A stretch of 64,000 bases of DNA, taken from Bacteroidia bacterium. Its GTDB lineage: Bacteria > Bacteroidota > Bacteroidia > B-17B0 > Aurantibacillaceae. Positions within the stretch are counted from its first letter, which is position 1. The number at the start of each line of letters is the position of its first letter. The DNA is taken from contig JAGNIU010000003.1 of assembly GCA_018000995.1 (NCBI GenBank), positions 1 through 64,000 of the forward strand. Reading direction: 5' to 3'. The notes under the pieces are model-generated. The model did not search any database. It saw only the letters and a list, made by a program, of their open reading frames with translations, and was not told where the DNA came from. The position numbers and the translations under genes are program-made. Positions 33,403 through 56,083 of this stretch are shown here, piece by piece.

Positions 33403-33426
33403 GTTTAAATTATTTGGTTAATGAAA

Positions 33427-33434
33427 TAAAGGTA
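33427..33434 (-). promoter_or_regulatory. Putative -7 element of paralogue copy 2
   Basis: TACCTTTA on the minus strand is a near match to TAnnTTTG, 24 bp before the ATG, and corresponds in position to TATCTTTA boxes upstream of copies 3 and 4. Confidence 0.4.
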
Positions 33435-33471
33435 AGAAAAAAAACGCTTCAAATAATGTGCGTTTGTTAAA

Positions 33472-33505
33472 ATAAAAAACCCCCGACTTGGTAGCCGGGG
33501 GTTTT
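33472..33505 (-). terminator. Intrinsic terminator after paralogue copy 3
   Basis: AAAACCCCCG (33476-33485) pairs with CGGGGGTTTT (33496-33505). The hairpin and its loop are identical to the one at 35671-35700, showing that the terminator was copied with the gene. Confidence 0.88.
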
Positions 33506-33523
33506 AATTATATGGATTAAGTA

Positions 33524-35599: not shown

Positions 35600-35624
35600 G
35601 TTTAAGTTATTTGGTTAATTAAAA

Positions 35625-35632
35625 TAAAGATA
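35625..35632 (-). promoter_or_regulatory. Putative -7 element of paralogue copy 3
   Basis: TATCTTTA on the minus strand, 25 bp before the ATG. The same octamer occurs upstream of copy 4 at 37840-37847. No clear -33 element. Confidence 0.42.
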
Positions 35633-35665
35633 CGTAAAAAAATGCTTAATAATGTGTGTTTGTTA

Positions 35666-35700
35666 AATAAAAAACCCCCGACTTGGTAGCCGGGGGTTTT
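35666..35700 (-). terminator. Intrinsic terminator after paralogue copy 4
   Basis: AAAACCCCCG (35671-35680) pairs with CGGGGGTTTT (35691-35700). It is identical in stem and loop to the terminator after copy 3. Confidence 0.88.
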
Positions 35701-35718
35701 AATATATTGAATTGAGTA

Positions 35719-37803
35719 TTATTGAATAACTAATTTCTTAGTTACAACTGAATTTCCAACTTTTACGTTATAGAAATAAACACCAGAGTTAAAGCTGCTT
35801 AAGTCGATGTTGATTTCGTTTGAACCAACTTGACCATTTACTTTATAAGTATCAACCATTTGACCGATTGAGTTATAAAGAACAACTTCAAAGTTTGAAG
35901 CATCTTTTAATCCTACAACAATAGTAGTTGCAGCGTTAGCTGGGTTAGGGAAGTTTAATACTTCAAAATTAACTGTAGAAGCATTAGCAACACCAACACC
36001 TAAACCTTTTGGTGACATTGGGTTTAATGTAAAGTTTGAAGGGCAAGCTTGAGCACCGCTTACGTACCAAGTATCAACGTTAACACCACCATTAAGAGTT
36101 GCGTTACGGGTAATAGTAAACGGAACTTCATAACAACCTGTAGTATTTGCTGCTTTTGGACTCATGTATTGGTAATAAGCATCAGAGTTCATGTTAGTAA
36201 CACCAAGTGTTAAGTTCATACGAGGAGTAACTTTTTTAGCTACTACATCATAACCTTTCATCATGATATCAGGATAGATATTCCATTTAACACCAGCAAC
36301 AGTTGAATCTGATTCTGTCCAGCTATAGAAAATTTTACTTCCATCAGCAGTACGGCTAATTTGAATACGAGCATCTAAATCCATTTTCGCACCAGAACCA
36401 TCGCTCCATGGGTTACTTCCGTAACCTGGTTGACCGCTTGTACCTGAAGGACCTTCAGTTCCCATTGAATCTACCATGTGGTAATCCCAACCGCCAGAAG
36501 TTTTTGTATAGAAGTCATAAATAATAGGATAATCAAATGGACCAGTGTTACCATAAGAATACTGCTCAGTTCCAAATACGTTTCTGTAACCTAAAGTATC
36601 AACATGAGTACTAATGTGACCATAAGTCATAGTAGCTATGTGTAATTGTCCGTTAATATCAACTGTTGCATCAAAACCTTCGCTTCCGCTAAAGTTAGGA
36701 CAGATAATAGCTGTATTAGAATTGATTGGATATAAACGATCCCACACACCTTTGAAATCAATTGGATTAGCAAAATCATTAGCAGGTAATAAACTCCAGC
36801 TTGTACCACTGTTAGTAGTGATATAAACGATTGGTTGATAACCACTCATTTGAGCATTAGTACCAGCTCTTGAACCAACTAACACAACGTAGCCTACAGC
36901 TCCGTTTTCACTCCATGCTTGAATAGGAGTACTTGTTAAAAGTTTAGTTCCAGCTGTGTTAGAATTTACCGGAGGACAGAAAGAGTCAACGCTCCAAACA
37001 AAAGCACCAGCGTTAAATTGACCTTTCACCATTGCAGCACCACGCATACCAAATCCATTAGGACCAGCTGCTGTACTATTTGGATCGTTAGCAACAAGAG
37101 CTATAGAACGCGCAAAACCACCGTCAATAGTACTAAATGAATAACGAGAAAACTCATGCTTTTTAAGAGATGTAGAGGCGTTAGTAACTGATTGTTGATC
37201 AGTACCAGCAGTAGTGTTACCAGGAGTAGTAATTTGCTTACTAGCATACCAGTTTCCATCCCAAGTGCTACCTGTAGTGTAAGGGCCAGCACCAACGATA
37301 TAAGCGTTGTTGATGTTAGAGTTACCAAGTGGATTCCAAATACCACCGTTCGGGTAACGAGCTAAATTTGTAGCATTAGCCCACAAACAAGTTTCATCCC
37401 AAGTAGTACCTAAGTTAGTTGAATATAAACCAACAATTGTTCCTGAGTTGCTATTAGAAGATGCAGTATAAGTTCCGTTTTTACGTGCAACAAATGATAC
37501 TGCATTAACTCCAGGGTTGTACTGTAATGGATCTGATTGAGATACTATGTAGCCAAACACGTTCATTGAACCTGTAAACATATTAACCGCAACTGCAGAT
37601 GTTTTTAGGTTGTTCTTAATTGCTGGTTTAGCTTTTTTAACCGGACCAGTAAATGAAGTAGAGTTCATAGAACCACCTTCTTTAAAGTCAAGTTTTTTTG
37701 GTGTAATCTGAATAATACCGCTTGGCTTATTCATCTTAGCATTTTGTGAAAACGCGCTAATAGCTACTAAAAGCGCACCTCCGATGAGTAGATGTTTTTT
37801 CAT
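35719..37803 (-). CDS. T9SS-exported protein of a four-member tandem family, copy 4
   Basis: The protein has 694 residues and is the first of the array in transcription order. It has a signal peptide (MKKHLLIGGALLVAISAFSQ), the family body (SDPLQYNPGVNAVSFVARKN, STNLGTTWDETCLW, TTNSGTSWSLLPANDFANP, VDSMGTEGPSGTSGQPGYG) and a type A tail nearly identical to copy 3. The tail and the mid-region are far more alike between copies 3 and 4 than to copies 1 and 2, indicating the most recent duplication. The promoter at 37840-37869 is the best of the array. Confidence 0.83.
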   Translation of the reverse strand: MKKHLLIGGALLVAISAFSQNAKMNKPSGIIQITPKKLDFKEGGSMNSTSFTGPVKKAKPAIKNNLKTSAVAVNMFTGSMNVFGYIVSQSDPLQYNPGVNAVSFVARKNGTYTASSNSNSGTIVGLYSTNLGTTWDETCLWANATNLARYPNGGIWNPLGNSNINNAYIVGAGPYTTGSTWDGNWYASKQITTPGNTTAGTDQQSVTNASTSLKKHEFSRYSFSTIDGGFARSIALVANDPNSTAAGPNGFGMRGAAMVKGQFNAGAFVWSVDSFCPPVNSNTAGTKLLTSTPIQAWSENGAVGYVVLVGSRAGTNAQMSGYQPIVYITTNSGTSWSLLPANDFANPIDFKGVWDRLYPINSNTAIICPNFSGSEGFDATVDINGQLHIATMTYGHISTHVDTLGYRNVFGTEQYSYGNTGPFDYPIIYDFYTKTSGGWDYHMVDSMGTEGPSGTSGQPGYGSNPWSDGSGAKMDLDARIQISRTADGSKIFYSWTESDSTVAGVKWNIYPDIMMKGYDVVAKKVTPRMNLTLGVTNMNSDAYYQYMSPKAANTTGCYEVPFTITRNATLNGGVNVDTWYVSGAQACPSNFTLNPMSPKGLGVGVANASTVNFEVLNFPNPANAATTIVVGLKDASNFEVVLYNSIGQMVDTYKVNGQVGSNEINIDLSSFNSGVYFYNVKVGNSVVTKKLVIQ

Positions 37804-38210: not shown

Positions 38211-40187
38211 TTATTTTATATCCGCAAAACTACTTACAGCAATAATTTGAATTTTTCGCTCGCGGGCGGCGTACGGACTGTATACAGAATTCTTTACATC
38301 CTTCACATCATCACTCACAATACTCTTAGGTAATTCGCCAATTTGAACATCAGTTAGCAGTAAATAATTTTTGGTGGAGTCTTCTGTGTTTACATATTTT
38401 TTAAACATACCATCTTTATACTCCATAAAATAATTACGTAAACTGCTAATGCGTCGCTTTGCTAAATTCACATTGTAATCGGTACTTGCTAACGGACTGC
38501 AATACCCCTTCATTGTAATTTTTACTTTTTCGCCGCGTGCTAAAACATCTTCCATCAGCCGCGCAAATTTATCTAAGTCTTGCATCCCAGCGTCAACGCT
38601 GTCTTCAAAAAAATTAGTGAGACGGTCTTCCGCTTGTGCTTTTTCTGCATCATCTAAACCTGCAGGATATTCCTGAAAATACTTTGGTTTTAGAGCAATA
38701 TAATCTTCGTAAGTTTTTTTGTAATTTTTTGTTGTAGTGATGGCCAATGTTTTTTTATCCGGTTCATCATTATGAAAATACAAAGTAAGCGGACATAATA
38801 TTTTTAATTGATCCATAATTACTTTTACAGTATCAACAGGTTTTGGTGGTTCATCAATTTTTAAAGGTTCAATGGCAAAGCAATAAATATCGTTACAACA
38901 ACTTTGTTTTTCTTCGAAGTAAGAACCAATTCTATTAGAAGAAATATAGGCTTTGTTTTTCTTCGCGTTTACGCTATAATAAATATCGTTGTAACTACTA
39001 TTAATTGGATGACCTTCGTTTTCAGGGTCAACAAACGCGCCATCTTTAAATTCACTTTTGAAAATATCGAAGCCACCCATGCCTTTGTGCCAGGTACTAC
39101 TGAAATGTAAAGTGTTATTTTCTTTTACAAACCAAGGTGTGATTTCATCTTCAGTTGAATTTATTTTTTTACCCGCGTTAACAGGCGTTGAAAAATTTAA
39201 ATCATTATCAAATGTACTGTACCAAATATCAAAACCACCCTCACCACCTTTGCGCGTACTGCTAAAAAACAAAACATCTTTACCGTTTAACTTGCTAACA
39301 TTTGGTTGAGTGTTATTAGATTGATAAATATTAATAGGAGGAGGTAATGGTTTTAAAACAGTCCATTTCCCATCGGTGTATTGCGAAAAATAAATCTGGC
39401 AACTATAATCAACTGTTGTTACAGCATTACATCTTGAAACAAATATTTTTGTAAAATCATCATTAAAACTTGTGTTGGCATTATGAATATTACTGGCATT
39501 AAATAAACTATCTAAAGCTTTTGCTTTTTGCCAAACTTCATTTGTTTTTTTTGCAGTGTATAATTTATTGAAAGCAATGTTATTCATATCGCGCTTACCT
39601 TTTCCGGTGTAACGTAACGAGGAGAAAAATAAAACTGTATCTAATTCAAACGGCGCATATTCACTCACACGGCTATTTACATTACTATCTAAATGTTCAA
39701 TATTTACTTTTAAGGGATTGGCTAAAAGTATTAATGATAAATCACAAGCTTCTGCTTCGCGCAACGCTTTGGTAACTAATTGTTGTTTGTATTTATCTTT
39801 TGTTGATTTATTTTTCTTTGCATATTTTTCAAAATATTTTTTAGCGTCTTTGTACTTCCCTTGACTTTTTAAAATAGTTCCCATCCATAATGGAGTTTCA
39901 GGATACATTTTAGCGTTATCCTCTTTCATTACTTTATCATACCAGTGATAAGCAATAGAAAAATCATAGTTTAAGCGGGAAGCCTCGGCGTATTTATATT
40001 GGTAAATTACTTGTGTTGAATCCAATAAAATTAATTGATTGAAATATTGTGCCGCCGAAAAATAATCTTTCTCACCAAAACTTTCTACCCCTTTAGCGTA
40101 CAAGGTTTTTTTATTCTGCGATACCAATGCTGTTGAACAAACAACAAAGAGAAGTGAAAGGAAATATGTAAAGCTTTTTTGTTTCAC
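38211..40187 (-). CDS. TPR-PD40-OmpA envelope protein paired with a PorP/SprF-like gene
   Basis: The protein has 658 residues: signal peptide (to about 24), TPR-like helices (about 27-150), PD40/WD40-like blades (about 185-430, for example VLFFSSTRKGGEGGFDIWYS and LHFSSTWHKGMGGFDIFKSE), and a C-terminal OmpA-like domain (about 520-655: VKITMKGYCSPLASTDYNVN then LAKRRISSLRNYF). The domain order resembles PorE of T9SS, without an obvious CRD. In the OmpA motif the usual diaminopimelate-binding Asp position is Ser, while the Arg pair is kept. It starts 3 bp after the PorP-like gene and is surely cotranscribed with it. It probably links an outer-membrane T9SS component to peptidoglycan. Confidence 0.82.
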   Translation of the reverse strand: MKQKSFTYFLSLLFVVCSTALVSQNKKTLYAKGVESFGEKDYFSAAQYFNQLILLDSTQVIYQYKYAEASRLNYDFSIAYHWYDKVMKEDNAKMYPETPLWMGTILKSQGKYKDAKKYFEKYAKKNKSTKDKYKQQLVTKALREAEACDLSLILLANPLKVNIEHLDSNVNSRVSEYAPFELDTVLFFSSLRYTGKGKRDMNNIAFNKLYTAKKTNEVWQKAKALDSLFNASNIHNANTSFNDDFTKIFVSRCNAVTTVDYSCQIYFSQYTDGKWTVLKPLPPPINIYQSNNTQPNVSKLNGKDVLFFSSTRKGGEGGFDIWYSTFDNDLNFSTPVNAGKKINSTEDEITPWFVKENNTLHFSSTWHKGMGGFDIFKSEFKDGAFVDPENEGHPINSSYNDIYYSVNAKKNKAYISSNRIGSYFEEKQSCCNDIYCFAIEPLKIDEPPKPVDTVKVIMDQLKILCPLTLYFHNDEPDKKTLAITTTKNYKKTYEDYIALKPKYFQEYPAGLDDAEKAQAEDRLTNFFEDSVDAGMQDLDKFARLMEDVLARGEKVKITMKGYCSPLASTDYNVNLAKRRISSLRNYFMEYKDGMFKKYVNTEDSTKNYLLLTDVQIGELPKSIVSDDVKDVKNSVYSPYAARERKIQIIAVSSFADIK

Positions 40188-40190
40188 AAA

Positions 40191-41210
40191 TTACATGAAT
40201 ACCGGACAAACACGTTTTTTAGCAATGAACGGACGGTTACGTTTAATTATATGCGTAATAAAAATTTCGAACGCTCCACGGCGGTTTGTGGCTGCAATAA
40301 ATTTACTGGTGTTTAAATCGTAACTCATTCCCGCGGTTGTTGTTTTAAATGTATAACCCAAACGAGTAATAAATGCATCTCTTGTTCTTAAATAAAATCC
40401 TAATGAAACACCATTGTTGGTTTCGGTATTCATCATGTATTTAATGTTTGCGCCGGGAACAAATTCATTGTATTTACCTTGATGAGAATAAAGTATTTCG
40501 GCTTGTGCAATAAATTTATTGTTATCCGTAACCGGTAATTCAAATCCAATATAATTTCCCAATTTAGAATCTAATTTACTTAATGTGTTTCCCTGATAAG
40601 TTACAGAAGGATTGGTTAAGTGATTAAATGAAAACGCATAAGTTAAACGCATGAATTGCGAAAACGAATATTGAAAAGCTACCCCAACATTAAAATCGGT
40701 AAAGCCTGTTTTAAAACGCCCAAAGTTTTCGCCGGTTGGTGAATTGTTATCGTAATCATAACCATCAAATTGATTATCGAAACTCATTTTATTATAATTA
40801 AAATTAGATGAACTATAACCGGTGTTAAGTCCAACACTAACTAACAAAGCCGAATCTTTTTTCAATTTATGAATGAATGAACCGCTGAGGTAAATTTGAT
40901 TGGTAGTATAAAATGCATCTCCGGCCTGATCGTTATTAAATTGTAAGCCAATTCCAATACAATCTGATTTTAATTTTTCCGGTCTGTATCGCATATCCGC
41001 TGCAAAGCCAAAAGTTTTATAAGGTACAGGAACGCTTTGCCACTGACTACGATAAATACCATTAAAACGATAATCGCCATCAAACAACCCGGTAAATGCA
41101 GGATTTAAATTAAGAAGCGAACCGTTGTATTGCGAGAAGTGTATGTCCTGACCTTTTAAAACAGGGTAGGAGCATAATAAAAAAAGTATGAGAAAATACC
41201 TAAACTTCAT
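40191..41210 (-). CDS. PorP/SprF family outer membrane beta-barrel protein
   Basis: The protein has 339 residues with signal peptide (about 1-20) and the family start QDIHFSQYNGSLLNLNPAFT, then GIYRSQWQSVPVPYKTFGF. Alternating aromatic strands continue to the C terminus, which ends RNRPFIAKKRVCPVFM. PorP/SprF proteins are T9SS outer-membrane proteins; each is usually dedicated to a particular type B cargo protein. It forms an operon with the TPR-PD40-OmpA gene (3-bp gap). The type B giants at 6509-15464 are possible clients, though they are 25 kb away. An exact TAnnTTTG box lies only 6 bp before the ATG. Confidence 0.88.
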   Translation of the reverse strand: MKFRYFLILFLLCSYPVLKGQDIHFSQYNGSLLNLNPAFTGLFDGDYRFNGIYRSQWQSVPVPYKTFGFAADMRYRPEKLKSDCIGIGLQFNNDQAGDAFYTTNQIYLSGSFIHKLKKDSALLVSVGLNTGYSSSNFNYNKMSFDNQFDGYDYDNNSPTGENFGRFKTGFTDFNVGVAFQYSFSQFMRLTYAFSFNHLTNPSVTYQGNTLSKLDSKLGNYIGFELPVTDNNKFIAQAEILYSHQGKYNEFVPGANIKYMMNTETNNGVSLGFYLRTRDAFITRLGYTFKTTTAGMSYDLNTSKFIAATNRRGAFEIFITHIIKRNRPFIAKKRVCPVFM

Positions 41211-43254: not shown

Positions 43255-43286
43255 TAAAAAGTCCCGCTAAAAGCGGGACTTTTTTA
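43255..43286. terminator. Bidirectional intrinsic terminator
   Basis: GTCCCGCT (43261-43268) pairs with AGCGGGAC (43272-43279) with A/T runs on both sides. It serves rpe and the convergent gene ending at 43318. Confidence 0.87.
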
Positions 43287-43317: not shown

Positions 43318-45294
43318 TTAATCAACTTTGATTAGTTTTTGTTTTGATAAAACTTCTTTTCCGGAATTCGAAACTTCCAAAAGATAAATTCCGGAACTTA
43401 ATTCTTCTACATCAAGTGATAGTTGTACTTGTCCTGCATTTATGTCATGTAAAAAGCTCTTCACAACTTTTCCAAACGCATCATAAACTAGTATACTTGC
43501 CTGAGTAGTTATTTTTGAGTCGAAGCCTAAATTGAAGCGGTTTTTTACCGGGTTAGGGTAAATAGCATTAACAACAATTTCTCCATCCATAGCACCTAAT
43601 GGATAAACATAAGTACTTTTTCTTTCTCCTGTTTTCTCAATTGCAGTTACACGGTAATAATTTACTGCACCATTAATGGATGATTTATCTTCAAATTGAT
43701 ATTTAGAATTTGCTTTATTAAATGGTCTAACATTTCCAATTGGAATAAAAGTTTGAGCATCCAAAGCGCGTTCAACAATAAATTCTTTTATGTTTGATTC
43801 TTCTGAAGTTTCCCAATATAAATAATTTGATTTTTCAATCCTTTCGCCATAAAATCTTGCAAAATTAATGGGTAAAACTAAACAGGTACCGGCACTACCA
43901 CAAGTAGTCGTATATCTGTATCCGGTATTCGTCATGTTCCATTGATTATACGGACCAGCTCCTCCAACAGCATTATGCATTGTGGCATTTACAGGCGGTC
44001 GGTAAATAGTTCCATTAAAGTTATGTAAACCTAATACAGCTTCGCCGTTATTAAATGTTGGACAAACGCCTTTATTCCTCACGTGAATTTCAATATTGTT
44101 GCTGGTTTCAAATAATCTAATCTGGCTTGAATGGTAAATAGCCGGACTTGCTGTTCCGCAAGAGAACATGGGCACATTTTCCCAAGAAACGGTAAATACT
44201 CTATTTGGAGCCGTACCGGTAGTTGTATATTGAATGACCCCGCCTAAACCAGGATGAATATCATGCCATGGTGCTAATACTGCATTACGTGGAATAGAAG
44301 TTGCATTTACAGGAGCAGGATTTGGAATGGTATAGCCTGTTCCAACGCCACCTGCCGCATAAGTACTAAAGGCAACATTTGGATTACAAGGAATAGCATC
44401 AAAAACGAAGGCAGCATTAGAGGCCACAAAACCTCCCCAATAAGTACCGCCATCATAACAAAATGGAAAACCAAAAGTAACAATGGATGTAAATAAAACG
44501 TCGTCAGTAGTTGGTAATACATTACCTGTAAAAGCATGAAAGCTATAAGTTGTTGCAGCTACAGTATAAGCCATATTACAAGATGATGAACCATAAGCGA
44601 CTGCTGCTTGAGCAGTACTTGTTCCTGAGTTTGGAGCACAAGTAGTTATCCTTCTGTAAAAAGTACTCGCACTAATAGGTCTAGTTATTACAGCGGTAGT
44701 AGCACCTGCAACACTCGTCCACGGGCCTGTAGAACTTGGTCCTGATTGCCATTGATAAGTTAGTCCGCACCCGGCTGCCGCACTTCCTGTAACTGAAAGA
44801 CCAACTGAACCTGCGGGAGGACAAGTTGGCGCAAGATTTGTTGCAGTTCCTCCGGGAGGAGTACCAGAACAACCAGGAGCACAAGTAATTGTTGCGTCCC
44901 ACCCCGCACGAACTCCACTGCCATCAGATGTCCAACTAAAAGTTATAGAGCTCCCTGTAGAAATAACAACACCAGGACTTGCGCCACCGGCGTAATTGCC
45001 AATTAAAGGGCTTGCACCATTAGGTCCATCATAAATGCGTAATCTATCACAGCAAGCTTCGGTTGTGTAAGAGCTTGAAAAGCTTATTTGCAGGCAACTT
45101 CCGGCAGGGACAGAAAAGGTTTTAGTCATGTTTTGGCTATTAGCATAATTAGCAGCACTTCCACCACTATCATAAAATAAAGATGTTGAGGGACAGGTTA
45201 AATTAACATTCACATTACTCATTAAATAAGTAGTCTGTGATTTTGTATTTAATGCGATAATTAAAAGTGCAATAAGTATAAATATTTTTTTCAT
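43318..45294 (-). CDS. CUB/Ig-like surface protein with type A T9SS sorting tail
   Basis: The protein has 658 residues: signal peptide (about 1-19), a CUB-like domain (about 30-140; CCDRLRIYDGPNGASPLIGN and ITFSWTSDGSGVRAGWDATI), one Ig-like module (about 145-235; LTYQWQSGPSSTGPWTSVAG), a beta-rich central domain, a fibronectin-like region (LPINFARFYGERIEKSNYLY), and a type A tail (NAIYPNPVKNRFNLGF ... GIYLLEVSNSGKEVLSKQKL). No catalytic motif was seen. It is preceded by a small secreted protein gene 5 bp upstream, so the two form an operon. The pair at 46468-49288 has the same organisation and shares the Ig-like module. Probably a surface-exposed binding protein. Confidence 0.83.
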   Translation of the reverse strand: MKKIFILIALLIIALNTKSQTTYLMSNVNVNLTCPSTSLFYDSGGSAANYANSQNMTKTFSVPAGSCLQISFSSSYTTEACCDRLRIYDGPNGASPLIGNYAGGASPGVVISTGSSITFSWTSDGSGVRAGWDATITCAPGCSGTPPGGTATNLAPTCPPAGSVGLSVTGSAAAGCGLTYQWQSGPSSTGPWTSVAGATTAVITRPISASTFYRRITTCAPNSGTSTAQAAVAYGSSSCNMAYTVAATTYSFHAFTGNVLPTTDDVLFTSIVTFGFPFCYDGGTYWGGFVASNAAFVFDAIPCNPNVAFSTYAAGGVGTGYTIPNPAPVNATSIPRNAVLAPWHDIHPGLGGVIQYTTTGTAPNRVFTVSWENVPMFSCGTASPAIYHSSQIRLFETSNNIEIHVRNKGVCPTFNNGEAVLGLHNFNGTIYRPPVNATMHNAVGGAGPYNQWNMTNTGYRYTTTCGSAGTCLVLPINFARFYGERIEKSNYLYWETSEESNIKEFIVERALDAQTFIPIGNVRPFNKANSKYQFEDKSSINGAVNYYRVTAIEKTGERKSTYVYPLGAMDGEIVVNAIYPNPVKNRFNLGFDSKITTQASILVYDAFGKVVKSFLHDINAGQVQLSLDVEELSSGIYLLEVSNSGKEVLSKQKLIKVD

Positions 45295-45299
45295 AAGTA

Positions 45300-45680
45300 T
45301 TATTTTATTGTTACGGCTTCCCCATCAATTCCACTATCCATAATTTCTTGATAAGCCTCTTCATCTTTTATTACAAGATTCTCGTTCCCGCCACAAGTAA
45401 TGCCTATTACTTTTACCAAATCGTAAAAATATTGAAACTCAGAATTAACATTTACTGCTTTTAAATCAACAAGAAGACAGTTATGATCTTTATAAACATA
45501 AACAGCTTTAGTAATTTGTTTATGCTTTTCTAATTCAACCGTTAAATTTTCTAATTGTGCCTTCGTAATATCAGGCATTACAATCACCGCCTTAGTCTCA
45601 ATGGGGGTGATTGGATTTATTTGTGTTTTTGCAATAAAACTTAAGCTTAAAAAAAGCATTAATATTAGGGATTTTTGCAT
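45300..45680 (-). CDS. Small secreted protein, first gene of divergent module A
   Basis: The protein has 126 residues with a signal peptide (about 1-20; MQKSLILMLFLSLSFIAKTQ). The mature part reads as a beta-alpha-beta pattern of about 80 residues (AVIVMPDITKAQLENLTVEL, then AVYVYKDHNCLLVDL) reminiscent of small ferredoxin-like folds, but without a CxxC metal site; two Cys residues are present (CLL, TCGG). It is recognisably related to the product of 46468-46836. The gene is 5 bp upstream of the T9SS surface protein gene and must be cotranscribed. I do not recognise the family; a chaperone or accessory partner for the surface protein is a guess. Confidence 0.7.
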   Translation of the reverse strand: MQKSLILMLFLSLSFIAKTQINPITPIETKAVIVMPDITKAQLENLTVELEKHKQITKAVYVYKDHNCLLVDLKAVNVNSEFQYFYDLVKVIGITCGGNENLVIKDEEAYQEIMDSGIDGEAVTIK

Positions 45681-45801
45681 GGAATTAAATGTTAAGAGAA
45701 TGTGAACTAAAACAGTTTAAATTTAACGTAAAAACAGAAAAAATAATAGTGTCTGCTTCAAAAATGAGTGAGTAATAAGTCTGAATGAGTAAGCTAATAC
45801 C

Positions 45802-45821
45802 TTGATATAAAGCTATATCAA
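45802..45821. promoter_or_regulatory. Perfect 8-bp inverted repeat, possible operator
   Basis: TTGATATA-AAGC-TATATCAA, a perfect palindrome with a 4-nt centre, 122 bp upstream of the 45680 start. A related GATATA...TATATC pair occurs at 45864-45883. The spacing suits a dimeric regulator, but chance in AT-rich DNA is possible. Confidence 0.4.
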
Positions 45822-46420
45822 ATAAGTAAAAGCGAACTTTTCTATAAACCTGATGTTTTTATCGATATAAGTTTATATATATCAGACGAAAAAAAGTACC
45901 TGTAGAACTGACAACCCATTTTTTTACAGAGATTATAGAATAATCGTCATTTAAATTGAAATAGAATAAATAAGTATTTCCCGTTATCCTCTTTAGTGAA
46001 ACAGCTTTCTTATCACAGTAATTACTTATCAAAAATGGAAGAGTAAAAATAAATTATAAACTCACTTTTTATAAAACTTTTACTTTATAGGCCGCCAGTT
46101 ACCAAAACAAAGCAATATGGTTTTAATCAATTGTTTTTCTAGAAAGTTTATTTAGGTCAATATTCAAAATTCGGTTTCTATTTATAATTAAATGAAGAAG
46201 CATTTCTGTAAAAAAATTTGCCGATTATTGAGTAAACAGTGTTGGATGTTGAGTGAGCTGGCTGATATAACAAGTCTAATTTTTTTGGCAGCAATTACTA
46301 AATAATGAATTAGTGGAAATTCGTATTTACCATGACTAAATAATTTGTTTGTGAGCATTATCAGAATTACTATTTATTTAACAGAAAGACTATACTGATA
46401 CAATTTATTCGGGAGATAAA

Positions 46421-46441
46421 TTTTTCTTTTTCTTTTTCTTT
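46421..46441 (+). repeat. (TTTTTC)3 hexamer repeat in a promoter spacer
   Basis: Three perfect TTTTTC units plus TTT lie 4 bp upstream of the TATCTTTA box of the 46468 gene, where the -33/-7 spacer would be. Copy-number change would alter spacing. Confidence 0.6.
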
Positions 46442-46444
46442 AAT

Positions 46445-46452
46445 TATCTTTA
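46445..46452 (+). promoter_or_regulatory. Putative -7 element of module B
   Basis: TATCTTTA, the same octamer as in the paralogue array, 15 bp upstream of the ATG at 46468. The upstream region is the hexamer repeat, without a TTTG. Confidence 0.42.
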
Positions 46453-46467
46453 AGTAAACTTATTATA

Positions 46468-46836
46468 ATGAAAAAGATATTTCTTGTGTTTGTATTCATT
46501 TACAATTTCGGATTAACAATGTCCGGACAAAACTCTGTCATATCTTCTGATGAAAGTTTTGTAATTGGTTTAAGCAAAATATCACATGTACAATTACAAT
46601 TTGTAAAATCAGATTTGGAAATTATGTCCAAAATAAGTTCGGCAGAATTTGTTTTCAATGACAATATTTTAATTATTAAACCCGATTACACGGATACCTC
46701 TTTGCTTGAGTATGCAGAGATTGAAAAAATTCTCCTAAAATATTTTAATCAGGCAGATATTCATAAAAAAGGTAATTTGAAAACATCTGAACTTCAAGCG
46801 CAATATGCTAAAACCGATAAATACATTATTAAGTAA
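46468..46836 (+). CDS. Small secreted protein, first gene of divergent module B
   Basis: The protein has 122 residues with a signal peptide (about 1-20). The mature part aligns by eye with the product of 45300-45680: VIGLSKISHVQLQFVKSDLE against VIVMPDITKAQLENLTVELE, and AEFVFNDNILII against AVYVYKDHNCLLV. It therefore has the same beta-alpha-beta pattern, without the cysteines. It is followed after 16 bp by the T9SS surface protein gene. The family is not recognised. The relation of the two small proteins and the identical gene order argue that they belong with the adjacent surface proteins. Confidence 0.7.
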   Translation: MKKIFLVFVFIYNFGLTMSGQNSVISSDESFVIGLSKISHVQLQFVKSDLEIMSKISSAEFVFNDNILIIKPDYTDTSLLEYAEIEKILLKYFNQADIHKKGNLKTSELQAQYAKTDKYIIK

Positions 46837-46852
46837 TTTAAAAAAGTAGAGC

Positions 46853-49288
46853 ATGAAAAATTTATTTACCTTACTTTTCTTTTTCTTTTTTTGCGGCATT
46901 GCATTTTCACAGCCTTGTAATATAGGAACGATTAATCAAATAGCTACGTTGCCTTATACTTCCGGAGCTCTTACAACCTGTGGCGCAGTAGATAATATAA
47001 CTTCAGCTAACGCGGTAACTTGTGGCAGCACACTATATTTTGGTGGTGAAGATGCTGTTCATACTTTTACCCCAACATTTAGTGGTCAACTTGAGATAGC
47101 CATTACCTCAACCGGTTCATGGTCGGGTCTTTTCTTGTATGCCGGATGCCCTATTAGTGGTGGCTCTTGTATTACCAATTCAACCAGCTCAACCGGAAGT
47201 AAAACTGTTTGTGCTAATGTTGTTGCGGGTACAGTTTATTATGTAGTGATCGATTCTTGGCCTTCTCCAACCTGCAATCCGTATTCTTTAAGTATTTCAG
47301 GATGTTCAGGAGTTCCGGCCGGAGGTACAGCAAATACTACCTCAGCTTCAGTTTGCGCATCAGGGAATACAGTCGGACTATCAGTTACCGGTTCTTCAAC
47401 AGGCGCTTGCGGTTTTACTTATCAATGGCAATCTGCTCCCGCAGCAGCAGGACCTTGGACTAACGTAGGAGGTGCAACGGCAGCAACTTATAGCCCCGGT
47501 ATTACCGGTGTAATTTGTTACCGACGTTTAACGACTTGCGCGGCCGGAACGGGAACATCAACTTCTGTTTGCCTTTCAATTGCAACATGTGCAGCGCCAA
47601 CTGGCGGTAGTGCTGCAGCAGCACCAACTGTTGCCTGTGCTGCAGGTGGTACTGTAGCTTTATCTGTTACCGGTGGCTCAACCGGTTGTGGTTATACCTA
47701 TCAATGGGAATCAGCACCCGCAGCGGCCGGACCATGGACAAACATTGCAGGAGCAACATTTTCAACTGCTGTTGGTACTGTAAATTCACCCTCTACTTGT
47801 TTCAGAAGAAGAATAATGTGTGGTGCCAGTTCTGCAACTTCAACCGCTGTTTGTGTTACACCGGCAGCAACATGCGCTTCTCAATTAGGCTCAGGAGTAG
47901 TTGCTGTGGGCGCATTGCCTTATAGCACTTCAGGTACAACTTGTGGTTCTGGAAACGACCTTACTACTGCAAATGTTTCAACAAGTGGTTGCTCCAGCAC
48001 CTCCTATTTCACAGGTGAGGATCAGGTTTTTGTATTTACACCAACTACTAACGGAAATATTACCATTAACTTAACATCTACAGGAACATGGACCGGTTTG
48101 ATGCTTTATAACACTTGTCCGCTTAGCTGCTCAGGTAGTAGCGGTTGTGTAGGTTCCTCTACTAGTTCAACAGGAAATAAATCTTTGGTAGTTTGTGTTA
48201 ACGCCGGTACAACGTATTATTTAATTTTAGATTCATTTGCTTCGCCGGCATGTAATCCCTATTCCAGTTTAACTATTTCTGCACCATCAGTAACATCTAC
48301 TACTAACGACTTTTGTAGCTCTCCTACTTCTTTAAGTTCTGGTGGTACATTTACAGGTTCAACAACAGGTATGACAGCCGACCAACCCGGAAATTTATCA
48401 GGTACGTTTTGTGGTTCAACAGAAAACAATCAATGGTTCTCTTTTGTTGCTACTGCAGCCACTCATACGTTTGGTTTTACTGGTATTGGTGGCGCAAGCT
48501 GTCCTTACGGCGTACAAGGACAAGTGTTTAATGTAGCAACAACACCAACTCCTTGTGCTTCCTGTACAAGTTTTACAAATCAATCAACTCCATGTTACAA
48601 TCCGGGTACAACTGCAAGCGGCACTTTAACGGCCACCAGCTTAACCATTGGACAAACCTATTATTTAGTTGTAGATGGTAATGCAGGTTCAGCTTGTACC
48701 TTTAGTATTAATGGATGGAGCACTCCTGTTTTACCAGTTGATTTAATTAGTTTTAATGGAATTGGTCTTGATACTAAAACTAACAAGTTAGAGTGGAGGG
48801 TAGCCATGGAATCTAATTTCGATCATTACCAAATTCAACGTTCTGTAGATGGAAAAAGTTTTAGTGATTTAGACAAAGTTTTTGCAAGCGTCTCTTCTAA
48901 CAGTGAGAAAACATATAATTATTACGATAAATCTTTCGTAGAGAACATCAACTATTACCGACTAAAAATAGTAGACAAAGATGCAACATTCAGATATAGT
49001 AATTTGGTTGCTATTAATTCGGATAAGAGCTCGAAGTTTAAGGTAAACAAAATTTTCCCTAATCCTGCTAATACAGATATTTATATGTCGGTTGATATAC
49101 CAACAGATACTGAAATTGAATATCAGATTTTAGATGTTACCGGACGCATAGTTGCGCAAAGCAAACAGGCGGTTAGCATGGGCACTACAGTATTAAGTGT
49201 TAATCTTGAAAAATTAAGCAAAGGGATTTACTACTTAAAGTTTGATTGCAATAACGAGACTAAGGTTGAGAAATTCAGTCTTCAATAA
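46853..49288 (+). CDS. PPC/Ig-like surface protein with type A T9SS sorting tail
   Basis: The protein has 811 residues: a signal peptide with a Phe-rich core (LLFFFFFCG), a PPC-like beta domain (about 30-150), two Ig-like modules (GFTYQWQSAPAAAGPWTNVG and GYTYQWESAPAAAGPWTNIA), a second PPC-like domain clearly homologous to the first (about 350-480; TGEDQVFVFTP against GGEDAVHTFTP), a third beta domain, a fibronectin-like part (LPVDLISFNGIGLDTKTNKL), and the type A tail (NKIFPNPANTDIYMSV ... GIYYLKFDCNNETKVEKFSL). The Ig-like module matches that of the 43318 gene, so the two surface proteins are partial paralogues. Many Cys residues suggest disulfide stabilisation. A surface-exposed binding role is inferred. 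Confidence 0.83.
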   Translation: MKNLFTLLFFFFFCGIAFSQPCNIGTINQIATLPYTSGALTTCGAVDNITSANAVTCGSTLYFGGEDAVHTFTPTFSGQLEIAITSTGSWSGLFLYAGCPISGGSCITNSTSSTGSKTVCANVVAGTVYYVVIDSWPSPTCNPYSLSISGCSGVPAGGTANTTSASVCASGNTVGLSVTGSSTGACGFTYQWQSAPAAAGPWTNVGGATAATYSPGITGVICYRRLTTCAAGTGTSTSVCLSIATCAAPTGGSAAAAPTVACAAGGTVALSVTGGSTGCGYTYQWESAPAAAGPWTNIAGATFSTAVGTVNSPSTCFRRRIMCGASSATSTAVCVTPAATCASQLGSGVVAVGALPYSTSGTTCGSGNDLTTANVSTSGCSSTSYFTGEDQVFVFTPTTNGNITINLTSTGTWTGLMLYNTCPLSCSGSSGCVGSSTSSTGNKSLVVCVNAGTTYYLILDSFASPACNPYSSLTISAPSVTSTTNDFCSSPTSLSSGGTFTGSTTGMTADQPGNLSGTFCGSTENNQWFSFVATAATHTFGFTGIGGASCPYGVQGQVFNVATTPTPCASCTSFTNQSTPCYNPGTTASGTLTATSLTIGQTYYLVVDGNAGSACTFSINGWSTPVLPVDLISFNGIGLDTKTNKLEWRVAMESNFDHYQIQRSVDGKSFSDLDKVFASVSSNSEKTYNYYDKSFVENINYYRLKIVDKDATFRYSNLVAINSDKSSKFKVNKIFPNPANTDIYMSVDIPTDTEIEYQILDVTGRIVAQSKQAVSMGTTVLSVNLEKLSKGIYYLKFDCNNETKVEKFSLQ

Positions 49289-49359: not shown

Positions 49360-50844
49360 ATGAACACTTCTTCATCTCCTATAAGTAAAACGGCTTTTTT
49401 AAAGTACGATCAATGCCATAAAGCATTTTTCTTTTATAAAAAGCATCCGTATTTACGAGATCCTATTTCGAAAGAAAAGCAATTTACATTTAACCGTGGA
49501 CATAGCGTAGGAAATTTAGCACAGCAATTATTTCCTGATGGTATTGATGTTTCTAAACAAGTTAAAAACAGTAAAGCTGCTTACGAACTAACTCGGCAAC
49601 TTTTAAACGAAGGTGTGAAGACAATTTACGAAGCCACTTTTGTTTTTAATGGGGTTTTGGTAATGATAGATATTCTTCACTTCGATGGTGAAAACTGGAT
49701 GGCCTATGAAGTAAAGAGTTCATTAAAAATTAGTGAGGCGTATATAAAAGATGCATGTTTACAGTATTACGTTCTAAAAAACACACTCATAAATTTTAGC
49801 GATTTATTTTTAGTGACGTTAAACAGCGCGTACATTTTTGAAAATAAAATTAATCTAAAACAACTTTTCAAAAAACGCAGCATAAAAATAAATGCAGAAG
49901 AGAACATTGATTTTTTTTCTCGCACTATTACGCAAATGAATTTGGTATTAGAACGCAATGCGATTCCGGATATTCCTATTGGGAAACAATGTTTTTCGCC
50001 GTACGAATGCGATTACTTAGGCACCTGTTGGAAAAATGCACAAGACCCAAAATCTGTTTTTAAAATCGGAAAATCAGACAGGGAACAGCTGTTTGCTCTT
50101 TATTTTTCAGGCGCAGAAACCGTTGATAAAATTGATTTGAATTCCGATTTAAAACCACACCTTAAAATTCAAGCGAATAGTATTAATACAGGCGAACCTT
50201 ATTTTGAAAAAGCCCAAATAAATAATTTCATAAAAAAAATTAAAGGCAAGTATTGTTTTTTAGATATGGAAATATGGTCGCCGGCCATTCCAAAATATAA
50301 TGGTACTAGTCCGTTTGAACAAATTCCGTTTTTGTTTTCGATTTGTTATGGGAACGCAGAAACTCCTGAGTTTAAAAAATATTTGAAACCAATTGAAACT
50401 GATTCGCGAAACCAATTTTTATTAGACCTGTTAGAAGCTACAAAAGAGTTTGATTCGGTGTTGGTGTTTGATAAAAATCTGGAAATGCAAGTGTTGGGTA
50501 AACTTGAAAATATGTTTCCTGAATACAAATCAGAAATTCAAAATTTAAGAGGGAAAATGATTGATTTAGCTGAACCGATTCAAAATTTTTATTTTTTTCA
50601 CCCAAACTTCAAAGGCAATTTTTCGTTGAAAGCTGTTTCTGAAATTTTTAATAAAGAATCTGATTATGCAACACTCGAAATCGCAAGCGGCATTGTTGCT
50701 ATGCATAAATACGAAGGATTAATGGCTGAAGAAAACGATATCATTAAAGAACAAACCAAGCAGCAATTAATAGACTATTGTAACATAGATACTTTAACTT
50801 GCCTGAAATTTTTCGAATACCTTAAAGAAAAAATTAAGGAGTAG
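49360..50844 (+). CDS. DUF2779 protein: Fe-S PD-(D/E)XK nuclease fused to DEDD-type exonuclease-like domain
   Basis: The protein has 494 residues, with no signal peptide, and is cytoplasmic. The N-terminal half has a Cas4/RecB-like nuclease core: Asp104 (MIDILHFDG), Glu117-x-Lys119 (YEVKSS) and Gln135. Four cysteines are placed as in Fe-S nucleases: Cys19 near the N terminus and Cys211, Cys217 and Cys223 (CFSPYECDYLGTC) after the core. The C-terminal half is the DUF2779 region, with D302-x-E304 (FLDMEIWSPAIPKYNG) and a late YCNIDTLT, resembling the DEDD exonuclease superfamily. A role in nucleic acid processing is inferred. Its 3' end overlaps the convergent porV gene by 11 bp. Confidence 0.8.
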   Translation: MNTSSSPISKTAFLKYDQCHKAFFFYKKHPYLRDPISKEKQFTFNRGHSVGNLAQQLFPDGIDVSKQVKNSKAAYELTRQLLNEGVKTIYEATFVFNGVLVMIDILHFDGENWMAYEVKSSLKISEAYIKDACLQYYVLKNTLINFSDLFLVTLNSAYIFENKINLKQLFKKRSIKINAEENIDFFSRTITQMNLVLERNAIPDIPIGKQCFSPYECDYLGTCWKNAQDPKSVFKIGKSDREQLFALYFSGAETVDKIDLNSDLKPHLKIQANSINTGEPYFEKAQINNFIKKIKGKYCFLDMEIWSPAIPKYNGTSPFEQIPFLFSICYGNAETPEFKKYLKPIETDSRNQFLLDLLEATKEFDSVLVFDKNLEMQVLGKLENMFPEYKSEIQNLRGKMIDLAEPIQNFYFFHPNFKGNFSLKAVSEIFNKESDYATLEIASGIVAMHKYEGLMAEENDIIKEQTKQQLIDYCNIDTLTCLKFFEYLKEKIKE

Positions 50845-52093
50845 GATTAGCAGCACCCGTAGTTTCTTTATTCTGACTCTTAAATGCGTCTAAGTCAAAA
50901 GTAAGTGTAAAGCGCAATGTGTTTTGTAACGGATTACGTAATGTTGTTGGAATTAAGTAAGCCATATCTAATCCAAAAACACTGTATCTAACACCAAGAC
51001 CGATATTAAAAAACTGGCGACCGCCTTTAGTTTTATCTTCATAAAAATAACCGGCACGTACAGCAAATTGTTTAGCATACCAGTATTCAAATCCAATAGC
51101 AATATTTACTTCTTTTAATTCTTCTTTGCCACCACCCGGCGCATCGTTAAACGAACCAAACATACCTGCAGCTACCGCGCGGTTAGGGTCTTTACCACTT
51201 TCAATAATTGGAGCGCCTGTGGCTTGATCGATAGCAATAGCATTAGAATCAGCTCCGGAAATAGTTTTTTGTCTTTGATAAACCGGTGGAGTAGGAACTA
51301 ATAATTTATTGAAATCAAGATAAACACCAAACGTATTGTAATCATCAATATCAATTTTATAACCACCACCTAAACGTAAATTAATAGGAATAAAGTTTTT
51401 TACAGTAGTGTAAGATATTTTTGTTCCAATATTCGTAATCGCTAAACCGCCGGTTACAGTTGTTTTTTTACCTTCAACTTTAAAGTTTGGCTTGGTTTTG
51501 TAAAATACGCCAACGTCAACTGCAACAGATTGACCTGCCTTTGTCGGCTGACCGTTACTAAGTGTAACACCACCTGTTAAATTTGAATTGATATAACGAA
51601 TAGCTAATCCTGCTGCAAAAGTTTGTGATAGTTTTTGTGAGTAGGCTAAATCAACTGCAAATTCGTTTGGTTTAAATTGCCCTGTTGTATTACCTTGAAT
51701 ATCGGTAAACGTAATGTTTCCTAAAGAGAAATAACGCATCGATGCGCCGAATGCACTCATCTTACTTACTTTTTTGTAGAAGCTTAAATAAGAAAGACTG
51801 ATGTCCGGAACTAACTGACGTAACCATGGTGTATAAGAAATACCAAAGCCCATGTTTTTTTCTGCGAAAGCAAGCTTTGAACAATTCCAGTGAATAGAAT
51901 TAACATCAGGTTGAGTAGCCGCACCAACTTCGCCCATACCACCTTGACGTGAATCAGGAGCAATTAAAAGAAAAGGTACAGATGTTGTAATAGGATTTAT
52001 ACCACCACTTAATTGTTGCGTACTAACTTGTCCGTTAAGCTTTAGAAACGAAGCAAAACAAACTGCAATTAAAACTAAATTTTTTATGCGCAT
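50834..52093 (-). CDS. porV: T9SS outer membrane protein PorV (LptO)
   Basis: PorV is an outer-membrane beta-barrel that shuttles T9SS cargo from the translocon to the PorU sortase. The protein has 419 residues with a signal peptide (about 1-21). It shows the family features GGINPITTSVPFLLIAPDSR, GGMGEVGAATQPDVNSIHWN, GFGISYTPWLRQLVPDISL and a C-terminal strand series (GVRYSVFGLDMAYLIPT). It lies directly downstream of porU (37-bp gap), the usual pairing. Confidence 0.93.
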   Translation of the reverse strand: MRIKNLVLIAVCFASFLKLNGQVSTQQLSGGINPITTSVPFLLIAPDSRQGGMGEVGAATQPDVNSIHWNCSKLAFAEKNMGFGISYTPWLRQLVPDISLSYLSFYKKVSKMSAFGASMRYFSLGNITFTDIQGNTTGQFKPNEFAVDLAYSQKLSQTFAAGLAIRYINSNLTGGVTLSNGQPTKAGQSVAVDVGVFYKTKPNFKVEGKKTTVTGGLAITNIGTKISYTTVKNFIPINLRLGGGYKIDIDDYNTFGVYLDFNKLLVPTPPVYQRQKTISGADSNAIAIDQATGAPIIESGKDPNRAVAAGMFGSFNDAPGGGKEELKEVNIAIGFEYWYAKQFAVRAGYFYEDKTKGGRQFFNIGLGVRYSVFGLDMAYLIPTTLRNPLQNTLRFTLTFDLDAFKSQNKETTGAANPTP

Positions 52094-52130
52094 ATTAAAA
52101 TCTGCTCACCAAAGGTGAACCTCAAAAATA

Positions 52131-55100
52131 CTAATTTAAAATCACTAATTTTTCAATTTTTTCAGCTTTTTTGCTGTCATTTCCGGTAATGCTTAACTTA
52201 TAAACATATACTCCTTTTGCTAATTTATCACCAAATTCATCTTTTCCATCCCAATCAATTCCGTCAGAGCGAAAGCCTTCATTAGTAAGCGTTTGGCTAA
52301 TTGTTTTTACTACTTTACCACTTACTGTAAATATCTGAATGTTAACTTTAAGGGTTTGACAGCATTGATTGTTTTCGAAAAAGAATTTAGTTTTAGTAGT
52401 AAACGGATTTGGATAGTTAAGCACATGGGTGAGTGCCATTTCAGCCGTTGCCGCAACTACAAAATCAGTATAAACAATAGAGGAATTATTCTGTACGTCC
52501 CACACTTTTAAACTTAATCGGTGATTACCTTCTGATAATTGATTGAAAGGATATTTTACTTTTCCTTTTTGATAGCTATTTAAATCAGCCTCGTAATAAT
52601 CATTTAATACAATGGGCTTACTAGTGTTTTCATCAAGAATGGCTGTAAGATCATGTCCAATTCCGGTACCAACTGTATTAATTCCACTCGAATCGGCTAC
52701 TTCGGCATAAAGATTCGGTTCCTCGTTAGTAGTTCCTCCTGAAACGAATTTTTTATCATTCATATACAGGCCTACTACTGGTCCGGCGTTATCAGGAGCA
52801 ATAGTTGTTGATGAGCCTCCAACATAAAAATTCTTGTTATAACCATTAGCATCAATTACACCATTGTGTGCATAATAGCTTAATTTACCAATATCGAAAT
52901 TGTAGGAAATATCCTTAGGCACTATAAACGAGAAGGTGAAATCGCCATTTTTAACTTCTACTTTACCTTTGTAAATTATATTTTTTTGAATGTTAAACTT
53001 GAAAGGAATTGTTCCTCCGAGTAAGGAACTCGGATCATTTCCTAAACAGGTTATTTGTTGTTCTTTATCAAAAACAGTAGGATAAAGGATACCATTAAAG
53101 TTGCTTAATTTATTACCAACCTTATCACCAACAAAACCTTTAACTGTTACTTTAGAAAGTGCAGTTAAGGTATCAAAAGTAGTTGGTGTAATTATTTTAT
53201 TATTTATTTGACTGGTGTAAACACGCTGCTGCGGATAAGCTAATTGAAGTGCAGGATCGCCCAACAAATGGAAATTAAGGAAGTAAAACTGAACACCCGA
53301 ATTTAACTTAGTTAAACGTACCACATCACCTAAACATGGCATTTTTCCATTAGGTAAGGTGTCAAAAATATAATCGTACAATTTTGAATTCAATACGAAG
53401 TTAGTGTTCGAAAAAGCTAGCCTTACAGTTGTCAATAATGCAATAGCAGCACCATTTGGATTTAAAAAACAAAGTTCACCGGCCGATGTTCTGTCAGGGT
53501 CATCAAAACGACTGAATTCACAAGTAGCTGTAATAAATAAGGGAAGATTGTTTTTATTATTCCAAGATTGTATTTGTGCAATTTCAATAAATCGTTCATG
53601 TCCTAAACCAACTTCGCCGCCATGTCCAGTGTAATTCATAACTAAAGTTCCTTTTTCAACACGATGGTCAATGCCTGCACTAACATCAGGATAGCGCTGT
53701 CCGCCCGGGGTAGATTGTTGTAAAAAGGCATCTGCATAAAGCTTGTCGACATTATATTCAGCATGTTTAGTTTTTACTTTTATAGCTAACTGATCTGCAT
53801 CCGACATGTGAGTTTGATTGTCTTCGTCATCAGCAATAAAAGTTACCCAATTGCGCCAATCACCAAGTGGATAAGTGGAAGAAGTAACGCAAGAGCTTTC
53901 AGTTTCTGTTAAGGAAAAATTGTAATTCTTTTTGTAATAAGCTTCAACTTTATCAAGAGCAACATTTGCTTCAGCTGTTGATCTTACAGGAAATCTTCCT
54001 ACACCAACATCCACGAGTGAGCTGCTCCAATCCTCACCTTCTGTATCACCCATCCATCCGTAAAAATCATCACATACAGTAGAAATGGTTGGGTTATGTG
54101 AATTTTCTTTCGGAAATCCGCCTACCTGCCAGCCCGGAAGCATAGATGAATTATTAGGACCATAACGGTCTTTTACTTTATAAGAGCCATCGCCATACAA
54201 CAATAAATATTTTACGTGATTACCGGTTGATAGATTTCTATTATAAAGCATTCTTGTAAAATCGCGAATAGCCACAGGATCCGGTTTTCCACTGGAGAAC
54301 TCGTTATAAATTTGATCAGAAGTAACAACTGCTGAAGTAAAGCCATCGTAGGTTTGGTGTAGTTGCGCTAATTTTTGTGCTTGTGGTAAGTATCCCGGAT
54401 AAGTTACAATAACATAATCCGCTTGAGCAACTGCATGTAAGTTTTGATTGATGACTTTAGTTACAAAACTCGCATTCAAATAATCAGAACCATTAAATAC
54501 CACATACTCCTTTAATGTGTCGCTGTTTATAGTAAAATCAAGCGTATTGGCATTAAGGTTGTATTGTTGATTAGTTACGTTAGTGATATCGCTTACATCC
54601 CACACAGATACATTAGAAAAACCATTTGTGTTTAAACTATAATTGGTAAGGTTCCCGGCTCCAATTACACGTTGATCTCTGAATTGAAATTGTGTAGAGT
54701 TAAAAACTAAATTACGGCGGCAATTAAACATTATTTTATCAAGCCAGCCAACTACTACAGGAGTTTGTTTAGTTAAACTAAAGCTTAATAATGAGGAGTT
54801 GTTACAAAGGGCTTGTGAACAGCTTTCGGAAAGCGCAACATAATCTCCTAAATAATCATTAAGATTTACGGTGCCGGTATTAAAATTAACGCTATTACCA
54901 CTATAAGAAAAATTGTAAGTGGAAGGGGAAGCACCACGCCCTGCTACTTTAACCCAAGCTAAAACAGTATCATTAACAACTAAATTCGGAATAGGATAAG
55001 TAAAAGTGTAAGAGTTTGTAAAATCGAAATATTCACCATAAAATTCACTACCCGATTTAATAAAGTTAGTTGTGTTTTGCTCATGAAAATCGTAATAATC

Positions 55101-56072
55101 ATAAGTGGAAGTTGAATGAGTTGCAACACTAGAAGAAGAAGCTCGATCTGCAATACGTTTCCCTGCGCCAAGATCGGTTGTTATATAATAATAAGAGGTA
55201 TCTGAGTAATAATTTTGTTTATTGTAGAAGTCTAAACAGGTTGCAATATGTATGGGATCATAAAACCAACGGTTTGTACCTTGCCCATAAAACAGAACAT
55301 AATCTGAATTATCAAAAACATTATCACTTTCACCAACAACTTTAATAGCATTTTCTTCCAAATCATCTATTCTATAAGCATCATTTCTCTCTGGTTGCAT
55401 ATAACCACCATTACCAAAAATCCTAATGTCTTTTGGATTTAAAGTAGTCATATCGATCCCCATGTTTTTAAGAAAATTTTTATCTAATTTATAAATACCA
55501 TTTTTTGTAATTCCTATTTTGTACCAAGTGCCCGTTGCTAAAACCGAATTGCTTTTAAATGGAGTAGAGGCTGCTTTTTTCTGGGTATTAAAATTGCCAT
55601 CTGCCGTTGTCCAGTCTACGTTATATGAAATAAGTTCTTCAATAAGATTACTACTTGTAATTCGATAGGGTCGGATTTTTGCAAAGGCAAGATAATCTCT
55701 TCCGCTTTGGGCATATTGAATTTGAATAGAAAACTCGGAGCTTAAATGATTTTTATAAAGTGAGATTAATTTTTGTGAGACTTCAGAAGACAAAACAACC
55801 GTTTGGATGTTATTTAAGGTAGCTTCCGCAATATTATTTTTGTTAATTTTTTTTGAATCTAAAAAATAAGGAGCGTTACCACTTTTTAAATCAAATTGTG
55901 CGTTTTCAAGTTGAAGTGGAAAAGCAGAATTCTCAACAAATTCTGTTTTTGAAACCGGTTTCGAAATCAACGAATTTATCGGTTCTGAGGTAAGTTCTTT
56001 TTGTTTTTGGCTTAAAAGCAACCCAAATACAGAAAATAACGTTAAAGTAAGTATTAATCTAGTGTTTTTCAT
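52131..56072 (-). CDS. porU: T9SS sortase PorU (C25 gingipain-type peptidase)
   Basis: PorU cleaves the sorting domain of T9SS cargo at the cell surface and attaches the protein to lipopolysaccharide. I start at ATG 56070-56072 (MKNTRLILTLTLFSVFGLLL, a signal peptide) because the frame upstream begins only with TTG and adds three residues. The protein has about 1313 residues. The C25 caspase-like core carries the His-Gly motif NYTGHGGEVG (His near residue 814) and the catalytic Cys in FITATCEFSRFDD (near 849). The C-terminal tail itself is a sorting-type domain (NYPNPFTTKTKFFFEN ... LAKGVYVYKLSI). It forms an operon with porV and is divergent from the porP-like/gldJ unit. Confidence 0.93.
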   Translation of the reverse strand: MKNTRLILTLTLFSVFGLLLSQKQKELTSEPINSLISKPVSKTEFVENSAFPLQLENAQFDLKSGNAPYFLDSKKINKNNIAEATLNNIQTVVLSSEVSQKLISLYKNHLSSEFSIQIQYAQSGRDYLAFAKIRPYRITSSNLIEELISYNVDWTTADGNFNTQKKAASTPFKSNSVLATGTWYKIGITKNGIYKLDKNFLKNMGIDMTTLNPKDIRIFGNGGYMQPERNDAYRIDDLEENAIKVVGESDNVFDNSDYVLFYGQGTNRWFYDPIHIATCLDFYNKQNYYSDTSYYYITTDLGAGKRIADRASSSSVATHSTSTYDYYDFHEQNTTNFIKSGSEFYGEYFDFTNSYTFTYPIPNLVVNDTVLAWVKVAGRGASPSTYNFSYSGNSVNFNTGTVNLNDYLGDYVALSESCSQALCNNSSLLSFSLTKQTPVVVGWLDKIMFNCRRNLVFNSTQFQFRDQRVIGAGNLTNYSLNTNGFSNVSVWDVSDITNVTNQQYNLNANTLDFTINSDTLKEYVVFNGSDYLNASFVTKVINQNLHAVAQADYVIVTYPGYLPQAQKLAQLHQTYDGFTSAVVTSDQIYNEFSSGKPDPVAIRDFTRMLYNRNLSTGNHVKYLLLYGDGSYKVKDRYGPNNSSMLPGWQVGGFPKENSHNPTISTVCDDFYGWMGDTEGEDWSSSLVDVGVGRFPVRSTAEANVALDKVEAYYKKNYNFSLTETESSCVTSSTYPLGDWRNWVTFIADDEDNQTHMSDADQLAIKVKTKHAEYNVDKLYADAFLQQSTPGGQRYPDVSAGIDHRVEKGTLVMNYTGHGGEVGLGHERFIEIAQIQSWNNKNNLPLFITATCEFSRFDDPDRTSAGELCFLNPNGAAIALLTTVRLAFSNTNFVLNSKLYDYIFDTLPNGKMPCLGDVVRLTKLNSGVQFYFLNFHLLGDPALQLAYPQQRVYTSQINNKIITPTTFDTLTALSKVTVKGFVGDKVGNKLSNFNGILYPTVFDKEQQITCLGNDPSSLLGGTIPFKFNIQKNIIYKGKVEVKNGDFTFSFIVPKDISYNFDIGKLSYYAHNGVIDANGYNKNFYVGGSSTTIAPDNAGPVVGLYMNDKKFVSGGTTNEEPNLYAEVADSSGINTVGTGIGHDLTAILDENTSKPIVLNDYYEADLNSYQKGKVKYPFNQLSEGNHRLSLKVWDVQNNSSIVYTDFVVAATAEMALTHVLNYPNPFTTKTKFFFENNQCCQTLKVNIQIFTVSGKVVKTISQTLTNEGFRSDGIDWDGKDEFGDKLAKGVYVYKLSITGNDSKKAEKIEKLVILN

Positions 56073-56083
56073 GTGTTTCAATA

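Follow-up and report, generated by a model that had tools for sequence, protein, structure and literature searches.

Small exported proteins encoded directly upstream of type A T9SS cargos form a Bacteroidia family of candidate cargo-specific periplasmic partners

The window analysed here, the whole 64,000-nucleotide stretch of DNA, contains two modules in which a gene for a small exported protein directly precedes a gene for a T9SS type A surface cargo, and this arrangement recurs across the class as a two-gene unit. The small proteins are homologous and have a common predicted fold, they and their cargos keep one gene order, are paired almost exclusively in both directions and are duplicated together, and the small-protein subfamily is linked to the N-terminal domain of the cargo. 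Functionally, we give about an even chance to the reading that the product of the small gene acts in the periplasm as a folding partner or escort specific to its cargo, in which we infer physical binding, periplasmic location and chaperone action.

Module A lies on the reverse strand, where small A (45300–45680, −; 126 aa, signal peptide, subfamily I; defined by its open reading frame, AlphaFold2 model and family alignment) lies 5 bp ahead of cargo A (43318–45294, −; 658 aa, with signal peptide, CUB domain, Ig-like module and type A T9SS tail), and the module ends in a strong terminator-like hairpin (43256–43284, −) with a 13-pair stem and a T run after it. Module B is read from the forward strand, with small B (46468–46836, +; 122 aa, signal peptide, a divergent family member defined by its open reading frame, AlphaFold2 model and profile match) as first gene and, 16 bp on, cargo B (46853–49288, +; 811 aa, with signal peptide, PPC-like and Ig-like modules, type A T9SS tail, a weak galactose-binding-like match and a cysteine content of 4.4%). 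Between the two divergent small genes lie 787 bp of AT-rich DNA (45681–46467, 26% GC), which, when scanned, matched neither Rfam nor the consensus used for Bacteroidota promoters. All four genes lie where the sequence-only reading had placed them, and its description of two type A-sorted surface proteins with a shared Ig-like module (TYQWQSxPxxxGPWT) is borne out: both cargos combine a signal peptide with a C-terminal Por_Secre_tail (cargo A, E 1.3e-14, 54.7 bits; cargo B, E 9.6e-13, 48.7 bits; domain cut-off 27 bits), and the module is common to both, within a 142-residue stretch at 48% identity. Its emphasis on conserved order together with divergent orientation stands for the gene order only, as the divergence is kept in a single syntenic relative (G006) and the module is elsewhere single or in tandem; the divergent pair is thus not a general functional unit, its orientation being incidental, and the unit is the pair of small gene and cargo.

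Evolutionarily, small A and small B are distant homologues, as their direct alignment had suggested. The pairwise alignment (E 2e-4) includes the signal peptides, which contribute part of the score; a hold-out profile of 17 small A relatives, built with signal peptides removed and with small B and its orthologue excluded, ranked these two proteins first among 689 (small B, E 1.2e-9; its orthologue, E 1.4e-12), and the reverse profile from the two B proteins found A relatives with E values down to 8.5e-11. An origin of the similarity in the signal peptides is therefore ruled out, since searches without them still match. AlphaFold2 predicts an identical order of elements in small A (mean pLDDT 78, pTM 0.72) and small B (mean pLDDT 77, pTM 0.69), a ferredoxin-like b-a-b-b-a-b-a-b, from a five-row alignment in which both proteins are included, which makes the two models partly dependent on each other. 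The folds predicted for the two proteins thus match, as the sequence-only reading had proposed to check, and mature-part profile homology with a common predicted fold places both in one new family. Its members are 108–145 aa long with an alpha/beta predicted fold; 51 of 52 have a clear signal-peptide core, none of the 52 has a lipobox, and a T9SS tail is likewise absent from the small proteins. The small rigid domain bears a conserved patch with a near-invariant Lys and an Asn/His motif. No credible Pfam or NCBIfam match was obtained among 51 members, the PDB gave no sequence match, and a Foldseek comparison of the predicted folds gave no significant relative (E at least 0.03); a FlaL2 match was set aside, as it covers essentially the signal peptide.

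Relatives were searched for by the small protein alone, blind to gene context. Profile searches placed the family in about one-third of the 87 genomes from the same order, which represent one taxonomic family, and in 34 of 396 from the class; outside the order the members of the protein family are more divergent, and a single-protein search of contigs gave matches in three metagenome-assembled genomes. No member was found in 297 genomes of the phylum, a result that hardly bears on how far the family extends, because apparently no genome known to match that profile was among them. Within the order, every readable member (36/36) has a T9SS cargo of ~640–1300 aa directly after it on the same strand, and elsewhere in the class 27 of 29 readable loci lie directly before a large protein of ~540–2000 aa, again on the same strand; the 36 and the 29 were tallied by hand among loci with a readable downstream gene, in the order after evident false matches had been set aside. 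The two unpaired loci border, respectively, a masked stretch and an opposite-strand gene near a contig end. Type A tails (E < 1e-3) were detected in all 21 cargos scanned in the order and in 23 of 26 elsewhere in the class. Across 46 pairs the small gene always comes first, with a median gap of 7.5 bp and 40 gaps of at most 30 bp, and at three loci (L063, L127, L236) both genes are duplicated in tandem copies. The pairing holds at many genomic places and across some 15 families, in which no small gene clearly stands free of a cargo. A neighbourhood search had been proposed for just this point, and since the homologues nearly always stand right before a T9SS cargo gene and the predicted folds match, the earlier notion of a functional unit of small secreted protein and T9SS cargo is supported. 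Five candidates were dropped from the family: L062 (a rhodanese), L058 4724–5494 (GLPGLI-like), L097 (a peroxiredoxin), L131 (a peptidase) and L136 (a porin-like protein after the small gene). Two weakly matching small exported proteins precede other kinds of large protein, one (L138, 6753–7145) a type B-looking 944-aa cargo and the other (L061, 7751–8140) a giant protein longer than 2293 aa, and the arrangement may thus extend past type A cargos.

The pairing was also followed from the side of the cargo. All near-full-length relatives of cargo A with readable upstream DNA have a small gene there, including three (L199, L200, L202) whose small genes the first profile had missed or scored weakly; L198 carries a second pair together with a fragment where its contig ends, and the small gene and cargo of G003 lie apart, at the ends of two contigs. 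No small gene accompanies L203, whose cargo resembles cargo A only C-terminally. Among other T9SS cargos of the source genome, the partner precedes none of 20 sampled as controls and none of six others in the window, which indicates that the small protein serves one cargo group and is not a general T9SS part. Partnered cargos are also richer in cysteine than the controls (2.9% vs 1.3%). Chance adjacency, or ascertainment in cargo-rich genomes where small secreted genes might commonly stand before T9SS cargos, has in its favour that the source genome encodes at least 150 type A cargos and that unrelated small genes precede two of the 20 controls; against pairing rates of 36/36 and 27/29, however, cargos make up only about 5% of genes, the searches were blind to neighbours and the control cargos lack a family member, so that base rate and controls together leave this explanation a negligible probability and rule it out.

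The modules sit among T9SS components (38211–41210, −; 50834–56081, −; 56189–57136, +), a set comprising PorE/OmpA-like, PorP/SprF-like, PorV and PorU sortase proteins, with porV and porU at 50834–56081 (−) and, judged by eye, a likely second PorP/SprF-like gene at 56189. The window also holds two cargo expansions: four consecutive related type A cargos of ~695 aa with near-identical C-termini (29081–37803, −), a tandem expansion in which none has a small partner, and neighbouring proteins of 1451 and 1463 aa with matching ends (...GKSHELKGHVTLIR; 6509–15464, −), which seem to have arisen when a type B-like cargo was recently duplicated. A DUF2779 (Cas4-like) gene at 49360–50844 (+) adjoins module B, and about 12 genomes of the order (L050, L052, L056, L058, L059, L060, L089, L092, L094, L120, L122, L134) and three genomes of another family have such a gene beside the module. 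As it is found in 75 of the 87 order genomes irrespective of the module, we rejected it as a third component and read the adjacency as shared locale. At L011, L012, L044–L047 and L088 the module is adjoined by a gene for a Wzc-like tyrosine kinase, whose C-terminus is a long Gly-Tyr repeat.

Small proteins and cargos also correspond in type. In subfamily II, which is the usual form beyond the order, two cysteines (positions 68 and 118 of L091) are invariant and the Lys is near-invariant; subfamily I, which includes small A, keeps the Lys and has no conserved Cys pair, and the pair is absent from both small proteins of the window. In the order, with N-terminal domain starts read by eye, subfamily I goes with CUB-first cargos (16/16), subfamily II with nidogen-like-first cargos (14/16; exceptions L052 and L063) and B-type small proteins with PPC-like cargo starts (2/2). 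Small-protein and cargo distances are correlated (Mantel r 0.58, 0/5000 permutations), and over all pairs the correlation is highest with the N-terminal 170 residues of the cargo (r 0.69), which suggests that the small protein may recognise the N-terminal domain of its cargo. We word this as a suggestion because, within subfamilies, the N-terminal region does not correlate best (r 0.33 vs 0.50–0.69 for other cargo parts); shared vertical descent would likewise produce correlated distances and subfamily–domain matching.

From a mechanistic perspective, we posit that the small protein would be made just before its cargo, probably from the same mRNA, and would pass through Sec into the periplasm, where it would stay unless carried, since without a T9SS tail it should not cross the outer membrane alone. 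There it would bind the newly exported, Cys-rich, multi-domain cargo, probably at the N-terminal domains, and would aid its folding or keep it fit for T9SS transport; at handover the C-terminal tail of the cargo would be taken up by the translocon and PorV, and the cargo would then be shown on the surface.

Small, client-specific proteins encoded beside their client are familiar as the chaperones of chaperone-usher and type III secretion systems; the present genes are likewise small and client-adjacent, whereas fold and secretion system differ and client binding is here a proposal. Closer to hand within T9SS, Flavobacterium johnsoniae encodes, downstream of its type B cargos, PorP/SprF shuttles cognate to them (PMC12618676; PMC9143113). 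The two arrangements are alike in pairing a T9SS cargo with a dedicated partner gene, one partner per cargo or cargo group, but the PorP/SprF proteins are outer-membrane beta-barrels of about 300 aa downstream of type B cargos, whereas the present proteins are small, soluble, exported, encoded upstream of type A cargos and unrelated in sequence and predicted fold; at 108–145 aa, alpha/beta and next to type A cargos in the window, they are not PorP/SprF shuttles. PorV serves type A cargos; SprE and SkpA, the latter a homologue of a periplasmic chaperone and located in the translocon, act for both cargo types (PMC10994853). All three also aid the passage of T9SS cargos, but they serve all type A (or all) cargos, whereas the present family is tied to one cargo group. 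One review of T9SS effectors says nothing of chaperones (PMC10202324), and a literature search of open-access papers, where absence is not proof, returned no description of the small-gene/cargo pair.

The main competitor of the chaperone or escort reading is that the small protein, after binding its cargo in the periplasm, leaves with it through T9SS and stays with the adhesin as a subunit that has a structural or ligand-binding role. Fixed 1:1 pairing, short gaps and co-duplication are the same genetic evidence for both, and a small rigid domain with a conserved patch would suit a subunit; we hold it clearly the less probable of the two, if still a serious candidate, as the small protein has no T9SS tail of its own and a co-transported partner of type A cargos was not found described in the T9SS literature surveyed. 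The mechanism most likely lies between chaperone or escort and co-secreted subunit, the latter explaining the pairing nearly as well. It is unlikely, though conceivable, that the two exported proteins act separately and are joined for co-expression, the small one being for instance a periplasmic or released factor in the process that the adhesin serves. Fixed order and short gaps speak directly for co-expression, with binding a further step of interpretation; yet a pairing kept over many genomic places and about 15 families exceeds what loose co-regulation would lead one to expect, and the small-protein subfamily tracks the cargo type.

Structurally, the nearest predicted topology is that of HMA domains (CCS domain I, Atx1, MerP), whose b-a-b-b-a-b order recurs in the predicted models of the small proteins at a TM-score by target of up to 0.77, and this could point to a helper that delivers metal to the cargo or aids its disulfides, the more so given the two invariant cysteines of subfamily II and the high Cys content of its cargos. 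The HMA CxxC site, however, is missing throughout (no CxxC in the b1-a1 loop of any aligned member), the small proteins have no Pfam HMA match and carry an extra C-terminal helix-strand element, and the topological agreement comes with Foldseek E values that are not significant (at least 0.03). The conserved Cys pair is missing from subfamily I, to which both window proteins are counted here, and this rules out a disulfide role for the family as a whole; we regard a metal or redox helper as quite improbable for the family, with a redox or metal role limited to subfamily II being possible.

Returning to the chaperone or escort reading, we put it at slightly short of even that this undescribed Bacteroidia family represents cognate periplasmic chaperones for Cys-rich T9SS type A adhesins, in which case type A secretion, for which PorV and general factors have been taken to suffice, would have cargo-specific partners too. 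Type B T9SS cargos are known to have such partners; for type A none was found in the literature surveyed. With its members accompanying a single adhesin group in about 15 bacterial families, the small-protein family would bring cargo-specific handling into T9SS and would assign a role to genes now called hypothetical.
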